Assembly: GCF_006352065.1 (NCBI RefSeq)
Contig: NZ_CP040915.1
Coordinates: 2,976,001 to 3,040,000 of the forward strand
Reading direction: 5' to 3'
DNA from: Georgenia yuyongxinii
GTDB lineage: Bacteria; Actinomycetota; Actinomycetes; Actinomycetales; Actinomycetaceae
DNA: 64,000 nt
The position numbers and the translations under genes were made by a program. The notes beneath the pieces were generated by a model. It saw nothing but the letters and a program-made list of their open reading frames with translations, searched no databases and had not been told where the DNA came from. Shown piece after piece: positions 1,082 through 61,797 of the stretch; position 1 is the first letter of the stretch, and each line of letters begins with the position of its first letter.

Positions 1082-1151
1082 GTGAGATGTCATCTCCTCC
1101 GTGAGATGTCATCTTCTCCGTGAGATGTCATCTCCTCCGTGAGATGTCATC
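1082..1151. repeat. 19-bp tandem repeat array, locus 1 (3.6 units)
   Basis: Units start at 1082, 1101, 1120 and 1139 and read GTGAGATGTCATCTCCTCC with one C-to-T change in the second; the fourth is cut off after GTGAGATGTCAT. Each unit contains the odd-centred inverted repeat GAGATG-T-CATCTC. Related arrays occur near 46793, 60330 and 61116, and an inverted hairpin version at 16980. No gene overlaps it. Apparent reading frames through the array are repeat artefacts. Confidence 0.9.
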
Positions 1152-1349
1152 ACGAGGGCCGGACCCGGACCATCCCGGGGCCGGCCCTCGGCCGTTGCAC
1201 GCCACCGACGCCGCCCCTCTCGGCCAAGCACCCGCCCTTCCGCGACACCGCCCCCGGCACGGACGCAGCGTCAGACTTCCCGCGCGGCGCCCCGGCGACG
1301 GCCGGTCGAGCGGGCAGGATGGGAACCACACCACCATGAAGGAGGACGT

Positions 1350-16979: not shown

Positions 16980-17035
16980 GAGATGTCATCTGCTCCGCGA
17001 CATATCATGACATCTCGCGGAGCAGATGACCTCTC
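16980..17035. repeat. Inverted version of the 19-bp repeat forming a 21-bp hairpin, locus 2
   Basis: The left arm 16980-17000 starts GAGATGTCATCTGCTCCGCG and the right arm 17015-17035 is its reverse complement with one mismatch; the loop is 14 bases. Both arms are units of the dispersed 19-bp family in opposite orientation. It sits 20 bases after aroA and ends 12 bases before the first rsgA ATG, so it may act as terminator or attenuator. Confidence 0.85.
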
Positions 17036-46792: not shown

Positions 46793-46844
46793 TGACATCT
46801 GGCGGAGAAGATGACATCTGGCGGAGAAGATGACATCTCGCGGG
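46793..46844. repeat. 19-bp tandem repeat array, locus 3 (2.7 units, opposite orientation)
   Basis: Units start at 46793, 46812 and 46831 and read TGACATCTGGCGGAGAAGA; the reverse complement is a variant of the unit at 1082. It ends 29 bases before the lpqB stop, in the 191-base gap between lpqB and comF. Confidence 0.9.
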
Positions 46845-46873: not shown

Positions 46874-48667
46874 CTACCCGGGCAGCGCGGGGTCGAACAC
46901 GTCGTCGTGGACGGCTCGCCAGGCGGCGCCGGTGCGCTCGTACAGCCGCCCGTCGCCCGTGCCGAGCAGGATCGACCGTTCCCCGCGCCCGGCAGCGATG
47001 GACACCGCCCCCTCGACCACCGGCAGCCGGGACGTGGGCCCGCCAAGCGGGAGCAGGTGCACCGTGGGCTCGGAGTCACCGCCGGAGTCGCCCAGCACGG
47101 CGACGGTGTTCTCGTCGACCCACGCCAGGTCGGCCGCGGCCGTGACGCGGTCACCGATCCGGACGGGCTCGGCGAGCGCGCGGGGCGTGCCGTCGACGTC
47201 GCGCACGACGGCGGCGGCGTCGATCACGGTCGACCCGGCGGCCTGCCAGACGACCACGGCGCGGGCCCCCTCGCGCGAGATCCGCAGCGAGACAACCGTG
47301 CCGCCGTCGAGCCAGGGGGCGGCGACGCCCACGCGGGTGCGGTCCGGCCGGACGGCCACGAGCGTGCCGTCGTTGGCGGCCGGGGTGGTCCAGACCCAAC
47401 CGCGCAGGTCCACCGACGGGGGGACCAGCCCGGCGCCGGTTACCAGCTCGACCGGCGCGTCGGCCCCGGCGGCCGCCATGAGCCGGTCGGCGCCGTCGAG
47501 GAAGACGGTGGTGGGGTTCTGCTGCTCGTACCCCACGGCGGGGTGGCGGGGGTCTAGCCCAGCGAGCTGGTCGGCACCCGGGCGCGGGACGACCTCGCCG
47601 CCGTCGACCTCGGCGAGGGCGCCGTCGGCGACCACCACCGGGTTGCGCGAGGAGTATGGGTAGGCGGGCAGCTCGGGGACGTCGTCGGTGATCTCGTAGG
47701 GCGCACCGGCGGCGGTCAGCTGCACCTCCTGGACGCCCGGCACCTCGCGCAGCGTGCGGGTGAGCTGAGCGGCGAACAGCGCCCGTTCCTCGGACTCGGC
47801 GGCCAGGGACTCGGCGGAGAGGTTCACCTGCGCGATGCCGTCGGTCACCGCGACGGACTCGACGGTCATCCGGGTGCCGGTGGGCGCCACGTTCACCACG
47901 CCGGGCGAGAGCCACGGGGAGGGACCCTGCAGCAGGCCCCGCACGAGCGCCGTCGCGAGGTTCTCCCGCGGGAACCAGCGCACCTCGGGCACGAACGCCT
48001 GCCGGTCAGGGGTGACGAAGTACAGGGCGCTCTGGACGTACACCGAGGAGAAGATCGCGAACGGGACCAGCACGCCGTCGTCGAGCTCGATGATGCGCCA
48101 CTCCCCGTCGGCGTCGCGGACGAGGGTGAACTCGGTCTCGATGGCGGCCTGCGGCCCGGACTCGGTGAAACGCCCGTCGGAGTCCACCGTGGCCTGCGAG
48201 GCCACGGACAGGCGGACAGCACCGTCGGGCGTGCGGGTGTACTGCGGTTGGGCGTCGGCGAAGATCCGCACCTGGGCGAGCGGCTGCCAGGTCTGCTCGG
48301 CGGTGCCGGCGAGGAACTGCCGGGCGACGAGGAAGTCGTCGGAGTAGCCGGCGGCGGACGCCGCCAGGAAGCCGTCGACGATCTCCTGCGGGCTGGCGCC
48401 GACCTCGGGGCCCCGGGCGAACAGGCCGATGCCCTGCGCGGCGGGCAGGTCGGGGTCTGAGGCGGTGACCGGTCCGGAGCGGGGCAGGCTCGCGCACCCG
48501 GCGAGCACCACGAGGGCGGCGACGACGACGGCGAGCACGGCTGCCGGGCGACGGCGCGGGTCCGGGCGACGGCGCGGGTCCGGGCGACGGCGCGGGCTGG
48601 GGCGGCCGGCGAGGCGCAAGCGCGGGCCTGGGAGGGCGGCGTGGTGGGAGTCCGCGGCGGCGGTCAC
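46874..48667 (-). CDS. lpqB: LpqB lipoprotein of the MtrAB system
   Basis: A 597-residue lipoprotein from GTG 48667, overlapping the mtrB stop by four bases. The lipobox LAGC ends a signal whose n-region is stretched by repeated PRRRPD units. A GerMN domain follows (VDGFLAASAAGYSDDFLVAR, VESVAVTDGIAQVNLSAESL) and then a beta-propeller-like LpqB region (VELVTGAGLVPPSVDLRGW, ISREGARAVVVWQAAGSTV). LpqB binds the extracellular part of MtrB and tunes its signalling, affecting cell wall and division. The N-terminal residues HHAALPGPRLRLAGR are unusual. Confidence 0.93.
   Translation of the reverse strand: MTAAADSHHAALPGPRLRLAGRPSPRRRPDPRRRPDPRRRPAAVLAVVVAALVVLAGCASLPRSGPVTASDPDLPAAQGIGLFARGPEVGASPQEIVDGFLAASAAGYSDDFLVARQFLAGTAEQTWQPLAQVRIFADAQPQYTRTPDGAVRLSVASQATVDSDGRFTESGPQAAIETEFTLVRDADGEWRIIELDDGVLVPFAIFSSVYVQSALYFVTPDRQAFVPEVRWFPRENLATALVRGLLQGPSPWLSPGVVNVAPTGTRMTVESVAVTDGIAQVNLSAESLAAESEERALFAAQLTRTLREVPGVQEVQLTAAGAPYEITDDVPELPAYPYSSRNPVVVADGALAEVDGGEVVPRPGADQLAGLDPRHPAVGYEQQNPTTVFLDGADRLMAAAGADAPVELVTGAGLVPPSVDLRGWVWTTPAANDGTLVAVRPDRTRVGVAAPWLDGGTVVSLRISREGARAVVVWQAAGSTVIDAAAVVRDVDGTPRALAEPVRIGDRVTAAADLAWVDENTVAVLGDSGGDSEPTVHLLPLGGPTSRLPVVEGAVSIAAGRGERSILLGTGDGRLYERTGAAWRAVHDDVFDPALPG
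48545..48597. repeat. 18-bp minisatellite in the lpqB signal region
   Basis: Identical units CGGGCGACGGCGCGGGTC at 48545 and 48563, then a partial copy at 48581. They encode RRRPDP repeats ahead of the hydrophobic core, making an unusually long arginine-rich n-region. Confidence 0.85.
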
Positions 48668-58436: not shown

Positions 58437-59453
58437 TCAGCCCGCCTGCGCCAGCGTGTGCCCGGCGAGGTCCTCCTCGAGGTCGCCGGTCTCCCCCGCG
58501 GCCACGGCCCGCCGGCCCAGCACGATCGTGTAGGCCCAGTACCCGGCGAGCACCAGCGCACCGATGGCGACCTTCGCCCAGCCCGGCAGTGCCGACGGCG
58601 TCACGAAGCCCTCCACCAGCCCGGAGACGGCGAGCACGAGCACCAGCCCGACCGCCACGGTGATCAGCGCCCGGCCCTCCTCGGCCAGCGCCCGGGCCCG
58701 TGTGCGCCGGCCCGGCGCCACCGCCGTCCAGAACAGCTTCAGCCCCGTGCCACCGGCGATGAAGATCGCCGTGAGCTCCATGAGGCCGTGCGGGAGGATC
58801 AGCCCGAAGAACACCGTCAGGTCTCCGTGGGCCGCCATGATCGCACCCGCCTGCCCCACGCCGATCGCGTTGGCGCCGAGCACGTAGACGGGAAAGACCC
58901 CGGTGATGCCCAGGCCGATGCACTGGGCGGCGATCCAGGCGTTGTTGGTCCACACCTGTGCGGCGAAGTCCGGCGCGGGGAAGTTGGAGTAGTACGCGGC
59001 GAAGGCCTCGTCGGCGTACCGCTCGAGCTCCGCCGGGCTGCCCAGACCGGCCAGGACCGCCGGCGTGCTCGCGGTCCACGCGCCCACGACGACGGCGAGC
59101 GCCACGAACGCCACCATCACCACAACCGTCCACCACCGCACCCGGTAGAACGCGGCGGGCAGCGAGACGACGAAGAAGCGGGCGACGTCGGACAGGCGCA
59201 GCTCGTGGGCGCCGGCGATCCGGCCGCGGGCCAGCCCGAGCAGGGCGGACAGGCGCCCGACGAGGTACGGGTCGGGGGCGGCGGTGCGCACGGCGGAGAG
59301 GTGCCCGGCGGTGGCTTGGTAGAGGCGCACGAGCTCGTCGGCCTCGGCACCGGTCAGCCGCCGCTGCTTGCTGAGCTGCTCGAGCCGATCCCAGTCGGCC
59401 TCGTGCACCGCGGCGAAGGCGTCGGTGTCCACAGCCGTTACCCTGCCACACAT
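58437..59453 (-). CDS. Stage II sporulation protein M-like membrane protein
   Basis: A 338-residue protein with a 100-residue cytoplasmic N-terminus (FAAVHEADWDRLEQLSKQRR) and five to six membrane helices; APDFAAQVWTNNAWIAAQCI and PHGLMELTAIFIAGGTGLKL are the SpoIIM family blocks. Non-sporulating actinobacteria keep it beside RDD and MoxR genes, perhaps for membrane or wall remodelling. The ATG at 59453 has GGGAGGGGG ahead; GTG 59432 is a second choice. Its start codon shares the CATG palindrome with the divergent RDD gene. Confidence 0.9.
   Translation of the reverse strand: MCGRVTAVDTDAFAAVHEADWDRLEQLSKQRRLTGAEADELVRLYQATAGHLSAVRTAAPDPYLVGRLSALLGLARGRIAGAHELRLSDVARFFVVSLPAAFYRVRWWTVVVMVAFVALAVVVGAWTASTPAVLAGLGSPAELERYADEAFAAYYSNFPAPDFAAQVWTNNAWIAAQCIGLGITGVFPVYVLGANAIGVGQAGAIMAAHGDLTVFFGLILPHGLMELTAIFIAGGTGLKLFWTAVAPGRRTRARALAEEGRALITVAVGLVLVLAVSGLVEGFVTPSALPGWAKVAIGALVLAGYWAYTIVLGRRAVAAGETGDLEEDLAGHTLAQAG
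59439..59444 (+). promoter_or_regulatory. -10-like TACCCT of the RDD gene, probable leaderless start
   Basis: TACCCT lies 7 nt before ATG 59452 and falls inside the 5' coding region of the divergent SpoIIM gene. Confidence 0.4.
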
Positions 59454-60315
59454 GACCACCCCCTCCCGGCGCACCGGTCCGGAGGCCGCACTGACACGTG
59501 CCCGGCTCCACGAGGACCTCATCGTCACCGGGGAGGCCGTGGCGCTGGAGGTGCGGCCCACCTCCGTGGGCCTGCGGGTGCTCGGGGCGATGGTCGACGC
59601 CGTCGTCTACGTTCTCGCGGCCGTGGGGCTGATCGCGCTGGCCACCCAACTGCTCGAGGGACTGAACGAGGCCCAGCTGGGCGTGGTGCAGGTGAGTACC
59701 TTCGCCGTCGTCATGGTGATCGCGCCGACGGCGGTCGAGACGCTCAGCCGCGGGCGGTCCCTGGGCAAGCTCGCCACCGGCATCCGGGTGGTCCGCGACG
59801 ACGGCGGACCGGTGCGTCTGCGGCACGCGCTGGCGCGGGCGCTGACCGGCGTGGGCGAGCTGTGGCTGTCGGCCGGCTCGATCGCCGTCATCGCGGCGGC
59901 GGTGAACAAGCGCGGCAAACGGCTCGGCGACCTCCTCGCCGGCACCTACGCGGTGCGGGTGCGCGAGGGCGCCCGCCGCCCCGCCCCGCTGATGATGCCG
60001 CCGGAGCTGGCCGCGTGGGCGGCCGGCGCGGACATCCGGGCCCTGCCGGACGGTCTGGGGCTCGCCGCACGCACCTACGCCTCGCGTACCTCGATGACCC
60101 CGCAGCACCGGGCCGAGCTGGGCGCGCGGCTGGCCGCGCAGGTGGAGCCGTTCGTGGCCCCGCCGCCGCCCTGGGGCACCGCGCCCGAGCGATTCCTCAC
60201 CGCGGTGCTCGTGGCGCGGCGGGACCGGGAGTACGCGGCCGGGCTGCGCGCGCGGGAGCGGGAGACGACCGAGGCGGCGCAGATCGCCCGCCTCCCCCAC
60301 GAGATCCCCGGCTGA
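59452..60315 (+). CDS. RDD-family membrane protein
   Basis: A 287-residue protein. Three helices with the RDD signature residues (VGLRVLGAMVDAVVYVLAA, ETLSRGRSLGKLATGIRVVR, GKRLGDLLAGTYAVRV) are followed by a 110-residue soluble tail rich in Arg and Ala. RDD proteins are small membrane proteins of uncertain activity, some acting as transporters. The pair SpoIIM/RDD in divergent order matches mycobacteria. Confidence 0.92.
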   Translation: MTTPSRRTGPEAALTRARLHEDLIVTGEAVALEVRPTSVGLRVLGAMVDAVVYVLAAVGLIALATQLLEGLNEAQLGVVQVSTFAVVMVIAPTAVETLSRGRSLGKLATGIRVVRDDGGPVRLRHALARALTGVGELWLSAGSIAVIAAAVNKRGKRLGDLLAGTYAVRVREGARRPAPLMMPPELAAWAAGADIRALPDGLGLAARTYASRTSMTPQHRAELGARLAAQVEPFVAPPPPWGTAPERFLTAVLVARRDREYAAGLRARERETTEAAQIARLPHEIPG

Positions 60316-60329
60316 CCGGCCCCAGCCCC

Positions 60330-60398
60330 GCGAGACGTCAACTCCTCCACGAGACGTCAGGTCCTCCACGAGACGTCAAGTCCTCCACGAGACGTCAC
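60330..60398. repeat. 19-bp tandem repeat array, locus 4 (3.6 units, variant)
   Basis: Units start at 60330, 60349, 60368 and 60387 and read ACGAGACGTCAACTCCTCC, with changes only in two bases after GTCA (AA, GG, AG). It lies between the convergent RDD and glycolipid-binding genes, 15 bases after the RDD stop. The core is GACGTC here, not GATGTC. Confidence 0.9.
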
Positions 60399-61115: not shown

Positions 61116-61175
61116 TGACATCTCGCGGAGGAGTTGACATCTCGACATCTCGCGGAGGAGTTGACATCTCGCCGG
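61116..61175. repeat. 19-bp repeat array, locus 5 (with an 8-bp insertion)
   Basis: TGACATCTCGCGGAGGAGT occurs at 61116-61134; the next unit (61135-61161) contains an extra GACATCTC, and a partial TGACATCTCG follows at 61162. Read on the minus strand it has the GAGATGTCA core. It is in the 178-base gap between the glycolipid-binding and isochorismatase genes. Confidence 0.88.
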
Positions 61176-61193: not shown

Positions 61194-61709
61194 TCAGAAC
61201 CGCACCTCCTCGACGGGCACGATCGCCACGCCCTCGGCGGCGAGCTCCTCCTCGACGGCGCGCGCCAGCTCGGTGGCCGGGGCCTCGTCGTCGTACGTGG
61301 CGTGCGCGCCGCTGGGGATCGTCACGCGGAAGCCGGCCTGCAGGGCCGAGCGGCTGGTGGCGCGCACGCAGTAGTCGCTCTGCATGCCGGCGATGACGAG
61401 GTGGTCGACGCCGCGGCCGCGCAGGGTGTCGGCGAGGTCGTCGTTGGCGGCGAACGTGTCGGAGGCGGTCTTGCGCAGCGTGAGCTCGCCGGGCCGGGTG
61501 TCGAAGACCAGCCCCCAGCCGGCGGTTCCCGGCTCGTCGGGGTACCCAGGACGGCCGTCGTTCTGCACGTGGATCACCGGGCTGCCGGCCGCCCGGGCCC
61601 GGGCGAGGAGGTCCGCGAGCGCGGCGCGCACGGTCGTGGCCGCCGGTACCGCGCCGGCGCCCTCGAGCACGGTGCGTTGGGCGTCGAGCACGAGCAGCGC
61701 CGTCGTCAT
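61194..61709 (-). CDS. Isochorismatase-like cysteine hydrolase
   Basis: A 171-residue enzyme from ATG 61709. The Asp-Lys-Cys triad is in LLVLDAQRT (Asp8), RKTASDTFA and VIAGMQSDYCVRATSRSAL. Family members hydrolyse amides such as nicotinamide or N-carbamoyl compounds, or isochorismate; the pocket does not tell which. A VIHVQNDGRPGYPDEPGTAG segment is typical of this subgroup. It stands alone between a repeat array and the divergent TetR gene. Confidence 0.9.
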   Translation of the reverse strand: MTTALLVLDAQRTVLEGAGAVPAATTVRAALADLLARARAAGSPVIHVQNDGRPGYPDEPGTAGWGLVFDTRPGELTLRKTASDTFAANDDLADTLRGRGVDHLVIAGMQSDYCVRATSRSALQAGFRVTIPSGAHATYDDEAPATELARAVEEELAAEGVAIVPVEEVRF

Positions 61710-61797
61710 GACCATCAGTGTCGCCCCCGACGGCGGCGCGAACCAGAGCGAATTGTGCCTTCTCCCGGACCACCTGTGACTTCTCGACACCAACTGA

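Follow-up and report, generated by a model that had tools for sequence, protein, structure and literature searches.

The window analysed here, a 64,000-nucleotide stretch at positions 2,976,001-3,040,000 of the 4.17-Mb single-contig genome of Georgenia yuyongxinii, carries short tandem arrays behind stop codons, which raises the question of what these repeats are and how they came to lie there. The first-pass annotation had described them as a dispersed family at five intergenic loci with two possible readings, namely that the family could be a protein-binding array or a mobile short repeat. All five loci are present where it had put them and are listed below with their neighbours; distances are to the nearest same-strand stop codon.

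1084..1149, plus strand: four cores GAGATGTCA with a period of 19, 18 bp 3' of the stop of a 2-oxoglutarate dehydrogenase gene (Pfam OxoGdeHyase_C)
1153..1190, plus strand: terminator-like G+C-rich inverted repeat directly 3' of this array, read from the sequence
16980..17035, both orientations: head-to-head palindromic form with one plus core and inverted minus cores, in a 100-base gap between aroA-like and rsgA-like genes (Pfam EPSP_synthase and RsgA_GTPase); the plus unit is 20 bp from the stop
46793..46839, minus strand: three cores, one GAGATGTCA and two CAGATGTCA, 34 bp 3' of the stop of an lpqB-like gene
46874-48538, minus strand: the lpqB-like gene (Pfam Gmad1 and Germane)
59452-60315, plus strand: RDD-family gene (Pfam RDD)
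60332..60397, plus strand: four cores GAGACGTCA in a convergent gap, 16 bp 3' of the RDD-family stop
61116..61170, minus strand: four cores with spacings of 19, 8, and 19, 23 bp 3' of the stop of an isochorismatase-like gene
61194-61715, minus strand: the isochorismatase-like gene (Pfam Isochorismatase)

The first-pass pattern, with up to two mismatches, matched the window 12 times versus a mean of 0.28 in shuffled sequences, and none of 100 shuffles reached 12. TRF reported a period of 19 at 1082, 46792, and 60331 and of 27 at 61117; the strict 19-bp period described earlier thus holds at three loci but not at 61116, with its unequal spacings. Likewise, the core GAGAYGTCA given for 46793 applies to one core there but not to the other two, and GAGACGTCA is exclusive to 60330 inside the window but has further copies elsewhere in the genome. 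A dyad had also been stressed. Its full 13-bp form, GAGATGTCATCTC, is exact in just two sense units of the window, and most units in two relatives lack it, so that, among the units compared, the dyad is not the conserved feature. At 1087-1104 and 1106-1123, the T-type units that end in GT contain an ATG...TGA frame of five codons (M S S S/P P-like), which seems incidental because the C-type cores of the relatives have no ATG there.

The unit consists of a 9-bp core, R (GAGAYGTCA), and a 10-bp spacer, S, and is most often grouped as R-S-R (28 bp). The count in the complete genome, which had been proposed as a check, gave 76 forward and 75 reverse copies of the exact unit GAGAYGTCANNTNCTCC, and none of the reversed pattern on either strand; with 151 copies the family is far from confined to one assembly region. 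An unbiased 864-kb stretch contained 42 exact units, 59 with up to one mismatch, and 69 with up to two, in 38 clusters, and the reversed pattern matched 0, 0, and 3 times at the same thresholds. Only 3 of these 42 exact units lie in a predicted gene, which is not the random placement, genes included, that would speak against a functional family. Of the 151 exact units, 135 are in the merged G. yuyongxinii segments analysed, spread over 118 clusters. Among 142 same-strand groups, those with two cores are commonest (85), 119 have at least two cores on the same strand, and 94 lie outside palindromic clusters. In the other form, units meet head to head in a palindrome of about 56 bp; in clusters of mixed orientation the plus unit mostly precedes the minus unit, with exceptions such as 827301.

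Gene ends were predicted with a simple codon-usage caller trained on G. yuyongxinii, and single gene ends and individual 'in gene' cases are accordingly uncertain. By these calls, 104 of the 142 groups follow a stop on their own strand and 28 do not, with 9 more in a predicted gene and 1 at an edge, which bears out the description of a dispersed intergenic family adjoining stop codons. The median distance from stop to group is 23 bp (104 groups; 9 at 0-15 bp, 61 at 16-31 bp, and 17 at 32-47 bp). When the 132 intergenic groups with both neighbours were sorted by gap, 55 were convergent, 49 same-direction in sense, 26 same-direction in antisense, and 2 divergent; of the 104,634 intergenic bases in the 864-kb stretch, 27,065 belong to divergent and 13,808 to convergent gaps. 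Among groups of a single orientation, 37 were sense vs 15 antisense in same-direction gaps (p = 0.003), and 24 of 34 in convergent gaps were nearer the sense stop. The units therefore follow the sense strand of the upstream gene in the majority of cases, and divergent gaps are nearly empty. The 15 bases 3' of 34 array-bearing stops have C and G fractions of 0.50 and 0.27, versus 0.41 and 0.34 at 348 array-free stops. In G. thermotolerans NBRC 104148 (G397), a same-strand stop precedes 39 of 52 intergenic arrays, with 22 sense vs 8 antisense in same-direction gaps, 17 in convergent gaps, and 5 of the 52 in divergent gaps; 12 of 67 arrays are inside predicted genes. In G398, 15 of 21 intergenic arrays follow a same-strand stop, 12 are convergent and 1 is divergent, and same-direction gaps show no sense bias (3 sense vs 5 antisense).

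These positions could reflect a selected 3'-UTR binding site, at which an RNA- or DNA-binding factor would read R just behind the last codon. Such a factor might act in termination, as a roadblock, or at the mRNA end; tandem copies would raise its occupancy, and drift in its specificity would give rise to species dialects of S. Both the sense preference in same-direction gaps and the clustering of distances, with 61 of 104 groups at 16-31 bp and few nearer the stop, are consistent with this possibility, whereas the 26 antisense groups, the absence of sense bias in G398, and the mixed kinds of arrayed genes in the window are not. We consider a selected site possible, although on balance unlikely.

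The palindromic copies suggest another role, that of bidirectional terminators, with the palindromes acting as hairpins and the direct arrays being their remnants. A palindromic copy has, as RNA, a folding energy of -42.9 kcal/mol, and convergent gaps contain 21 of the 44 palindromic half-groups. However, two-thirds of the groups (94 of 142) are outside palindromic clusters, the direct arrays fold weakly (mean z -0.74 and -1.5), and the array at 1084 has a separate hairpin on its 3' side; congeners that have no array there carry a similar one behind the stop codon. We therefore regard a terminator origin as improbable. An RNA hairpin was also rejected as the conserved feature, since the folds (40 of 53 two-core and all 31 longer groups) were weak and differed between species, and so were arrays as partners of strong hairpins, since no excess was found (27 arrays, median -19.1, vs 168 array-free stops, median -22.6). 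Rfam gave no match at the gathering threshold in the window.

To what extent the family is shared was evaluated by counting GAGNNGTCA-N10-GAGNNGTCA across Georgenia. It occurs 109 times in G. yuyongxinii, 195 times in G. thermotolerans, and 147 times in G398, but 7 times in Georgenia sp. EYE_87 (G396), 3 times in G. ruanii JCM 15130 (G399), and not at all in G400-G403; the reversed control matched once in G. yuyongxinii and nowhere else. G396, G397, and G399 take their names from records with which they have exact 200-base stretches in common. The tree pairs G. thermotolerans with G. ruanii and EYE_87 with G398 as sisters (bootstrap 100; deeper nodes 60-72), and the count differs up to ~65-fold between sister species. 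On these counts, the arrays of G. ruanii and EYE_87 were lost or never gained. Outside the genus, GAGAYGTCA-N10-GAGAYGTCA was absent from 140 genomes of the family and order, a scan for three spaced cores in 394 genomes of the class found G. yuyongxinii and one unrelated unit (with two control matches in another genome), and a strict-pattern scan of 396 genomes of the phylum had matches in G. yuyongxinii alone. Among the 80 stretches listed by a genome scan, 23 from outside Georgenia carried single or unrelated tandem matches.

Other repeats were seen at gene ends in the genus. G403 has a sparse single-unit relative, GAGCGGTCAAGT, at three loci in 200 kb (C1:100001-300000; L452 and L455 among them), where the first copies start 4, 10, and 11 bp 3' of predicted stops in sense orientation. 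Tandem repeats of ~18-20 bp, different in sequence in each genome, lie right 3' of stops in G396 (L431), G398 (L420), G400 (L441), and G403 (L378). It is possible that repeat turnover 3' of stop codons is a habit of the genus. The short tandem repeats that congeners carry at these gene ends, together with local homogenisation of S, would also fit neutral slippage products that are tolerated 3' of stops and involve no trans-acting factor. One sequence at 118 separate clusters cannot come from slippage alone, however, and intergenic 12-mers recur at three places at most in 200 kb of G403, 100 kb of G401, and 100 kb of G400, as against 26 in 864 kb of G. yuyongxinii, so that slippage is a doubtful explanation.

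The core and the spacer behave differently. The three array-rich species share the core letters GAG and GTCA, a T at position 12, and G and C/T just 5' of the first core, while the consensus units are GAGATGTCATCTtCTCCGc in G. yuyongxinii, GAGACGTCAAgT.GggCGC in G. thermotolerans, and GAGacGTCAAcTcCTCC.C in G398. In the earlier comparison of units and dyad between relatives, the G398 list includes five EYE_87 loci; the consensus and the other G398 counts are of G398 loci only. G. thermotolerans and G398 thus keep R, each with its own S. In arrays of at least three cores, the likeness of S within vs between arrays was 7.76 vs 6.61 of 10 in G. yuyongxinii (23 arrays), 7.63 vs 5.89 in G. thermotolerans (50 arrays), and 8.45 vs 6.78 in G398 (17 arrays), whereas that of R was 8.09 vs 7.93, 8.13 vs 8.20, and 7.89 vs 7.44 of 9, respectively. 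Accordingly, S is homogenised inside arrays and R hardly is, modestly so in G398, and the earlier suggestion of local copying stands for the spacer but hardly for the core. That R is equally alike within and between arrays in G. yuyongxinii and G. thermotolerans and is kept across species favours a selected 3'-UTR site, as does the best preservation of the core nearest the stop (mean matches to seven fixed letters, first/last core, of 6.91/6.43, 6.98/6.68, and 6.88/6.76).

The 500-bp upstream flanks of 100 arrays of relatives (69 from G. thermotolerans, 25 from G398, and 6 from EYE_87) were then sought in the G. yuyongxinii segments. In the unbiased stretch, 11 of the 69 G. thermotolerans flanks were matched, and 7 of these 11 had a G. 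yuyongxinii array within 150 bp, in the same orientation in all 7, against a background of 38 clusters per 748 predicted genes. Another 24 G. thermotolerans flanks matched segments that had been chosen for holding arrays, a biased sample in which an array was at the place in 20. Seven of the 25 G398 flanks were matched, 4 with an array in G. yuyongxinii, and one of the 6 EYE_87 flanks, with an array. In paired arrays, the spacer in each is that species' own. In the converse direction, five of five G. yuyongxinii arrays off the shared list lacked an array at the corresponding place in G. thermotolerans, a sixth being without a match, and sharing is therefore lower from the G. yuyongxinii side (at least 7 of the 38 clusters of the 864-kb stretch). 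The coincidence of 7 of 11 arrays in position and of all 7 in orientation also favours a selected site, whereas the sharing of only 4 of 25 queried G398 arrays, the five off-list arrays, and the four congeners lacking any pattern match argue against it. Neighbouring G. yuyongxinii arrays within 6 kb (1709500-1719200, L173) have counterparts at the matching gene ends of G. thermotolerans (L270).

At 12 sites common to G. yuyongxinii and G. thermotolerans, G. ruanii has, by our own judgement in sorting them, a decayed in-register array at sites 1, 6, and 10, a gap at sites 0, 4, 5, and 11, and other sequence at sites 2, 3, 7, 8, and 9. At site 9 (L408), behind the stop orthologous to G. yuyongxinii 568055, it has a different tandem repeat of ~17-18 bp, CTGACAGTCAGCGTCCG-like. 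Between the sisters G. thermotolerans and G. ruanii, the array blocks at sites 1 and 6 are identical at 46 of 66 and 23 of 46 positions, but the downstream flanks at 95 of 100 and 96 of 100. This contrast is not general, as it is unseen at site 10 (block 22/28 vs flank 67/98) and at the first site of the window (24/43 vs 65/100). At the latter, G. thermotolerans has four cores separated by three copies of a single new spacer, G. ruanii has just one intact core, a G. yuyongxinii-like spacer, and a damaged core, and EYE_87, G398, and G400-G403 have no such array before the hairpin. The aroA-rsgA gap, with its 100 bases and palindromic form in G. yuyongxinii, contains an array in none of eight congeners; the two genes nearly touch in most of them and are a few tens of bases apart in G403. 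At this gap, the one clean empty site, no target duplication was visible; flanks at sites compared between congeners were mostly not alignable. Flanking duplications (score at least 14) were found at 0 of 115 G. yuyongxinii, 1 of 69 G. thermotolerans, and 2 of 28 G398 arrays. On the 3' side of the G. thermotolerans array L375, 31 bases of the end of its gene recur (CCTCGCACGCGTGCTGCTCGACGGCGAGGCC, with up to one mismatch), and so this array sits inside a local duplication, the sole case among the 69.

Searches for a mobilising gene gave no candidate. The Y1 transposase domain (Y1_Tnp, PF01797) was found in none of nine genomes, seven of them Georgenia, while control matches appeared in 5 of 14, so GTAG REPs with a RAYT gene were rejected. 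No R-S-R unit was found at 26 loci around PF13011 matches, which excludes ends of IS481-type transposons there; the single broken PF13011 match of G. yuyongxinii has no units either, and its PF00665 matches, one of three above cut-off, have no array within the three loci. The frames enclosed by four of five widely spaced plus and minus unit pairs of G. yuyongxinii, read by eye, showed no transposase-like gene, and unit pairs as transposon ends were also discarded. Viral, plasmid, and phage collections had no match to the patterns or query used.

The location behind stops, the sense preference, the avoidance of divergent gaps, the constant R with a species-specific S, and the count gap between sisters are read from the genome sequences. 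To explain them we tentatively favour, with a confidence somewhat short of even, a genus-specific REP-like 3'-end repeat that is re-copied or rewritten in place by a putative trans-acting activity recognising R. The element would be R-S-R, which tandem duplication in steps of 19 bp would lengthen and head-to-head doubling would turn into the ~56-bp palindrome. The putative activity would recognise R and add or rewrite units, with a preference for gene ends where one is present, so that old arrays would take the current spacer; where a lineage lost it, arrays would decay or be removed. Any influence on termination or on the stability of the mRNA may be a by-product. In favour of rewriting are the counts (195 vs 3 and 147 vs 7 in the sister pairs, 109 in G. 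yuyongxinii, and 0 in G400-G403), the homogenised spacers, the palindrome in the aroA-rsgA gap, the diverged blocks beside near-identical flanks at sites 1 and 6, and the spacers of G. ruanii and G. thermotolerans at the first site of the window; the location near upstream 3' ends is that described for REPs in passages of PMC3733652. Against it are the absence of Y1_Tnp from nine genomes and of units from the 26 IS481-type loci, the lack of a target duplication at the clean empty site and of long flanking duplications, the 7 of 11 shared positions, which would need strong hot spots or descent, and the two sites at which the block/flank contrast is unseen. Next after rewriting by an R-recognising activity ranks the selected 3'-UTR site, which is its main rival and which we hold somewhat less probable.

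REP-like repeats are usually credited to RAYT transposases or left unexplained. According to passages of Di Nocera et al. (2013, PMC3733652), REPs are mostly found in convergent or same-direction gaps, near the 3' end of the gene upstream, and CGTC-tagged REPs are hairpins whose CGTC tag is left unpaired by a stem of 8-9 bp, have no dedicated transposase, and occur predominantly as head-to-head dimers, head-to-tail ones being negligible; the passages on CGTC REPs make no mention of Actinobacteria. As far as described there, the Georgenia repeat resembles CGTC REPs in its many dispersed intergenic copies near upstream 3' ends in convergent or same-direction gaps, avoidance of divergent gaps, head-to-head dimers, and the absence of a dedicated transposase among the genes searched for, and thus corresponds to a REP in the wide sense. 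Unlike them, its single units are not hairpins, the folds being weak and variable between species, and arrays running head to tail in steps of 19 bp predominate (119 of 142 groups with at least two same-strand cores, 94 non-palindromic). DNA uptake sequences are recognised in transformation. Passages of PMC3630211 describe those of Neisseriaceae as short cores with species dialects and inverted pairs near terminators, present in thousands of copies and common inside genes. The constant core, species-specific surroundings, and inverted pairs are similar, but the Georgenia repeat has 151 exact units, 3 of 42 in predicted genes, tandem arrays, and a sense bias, and so differs in copy number and location. 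MITEs, for their part, have terminal inverted repeats with target-site duplication. The inverted 28-bp arms of the palindrome and the presence or absence between species recall MITE-type remnants, but no parent transposon or transposase-flanking copy was found and no target duplication was seen at the one clean empty site. We file the repeat as a REP-like kind that probably works like a REP, and place it in neither the GTAG nor the CGTC family. Literature searches found nothing combining Georgenia, repeat, and intergenic, and nothing on intergenic tandem repeats downstream of bacterial stop codons; among the matches listed, no paper containing the core letters had a title on this subject.

Beyond the first-pass annotation, the analysis thus adds the sense polarity, the near-empty divergent gaps, the species-specific spacer, the partly shared positions, and the near absence from sister species. 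A more speculative and rather unlikely reading is that of a polar 3'-end code, in which a putative factor would read R, in transcript or DNA, behind the last codon of partly shared gene sets, the spacer dialect would co-evolve with it, and the set would vanish upon loss of the factor. If true, this would amount to a system of regulation or termination placed behind stop codons; to our knowledge, a system of this type is known from no other actinomycete, and a literature search for post-stop-codon repeat systems in actinomycetes found none. The value of the genus lies in its close sister species with and without the family, in gene ends held in common, and in spacers that differ at them, so that gain, rewriting, and loss can be traced at single loci. 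The Georgenia family thereby makes testable what spreads gene-end repeats that have no transposase.
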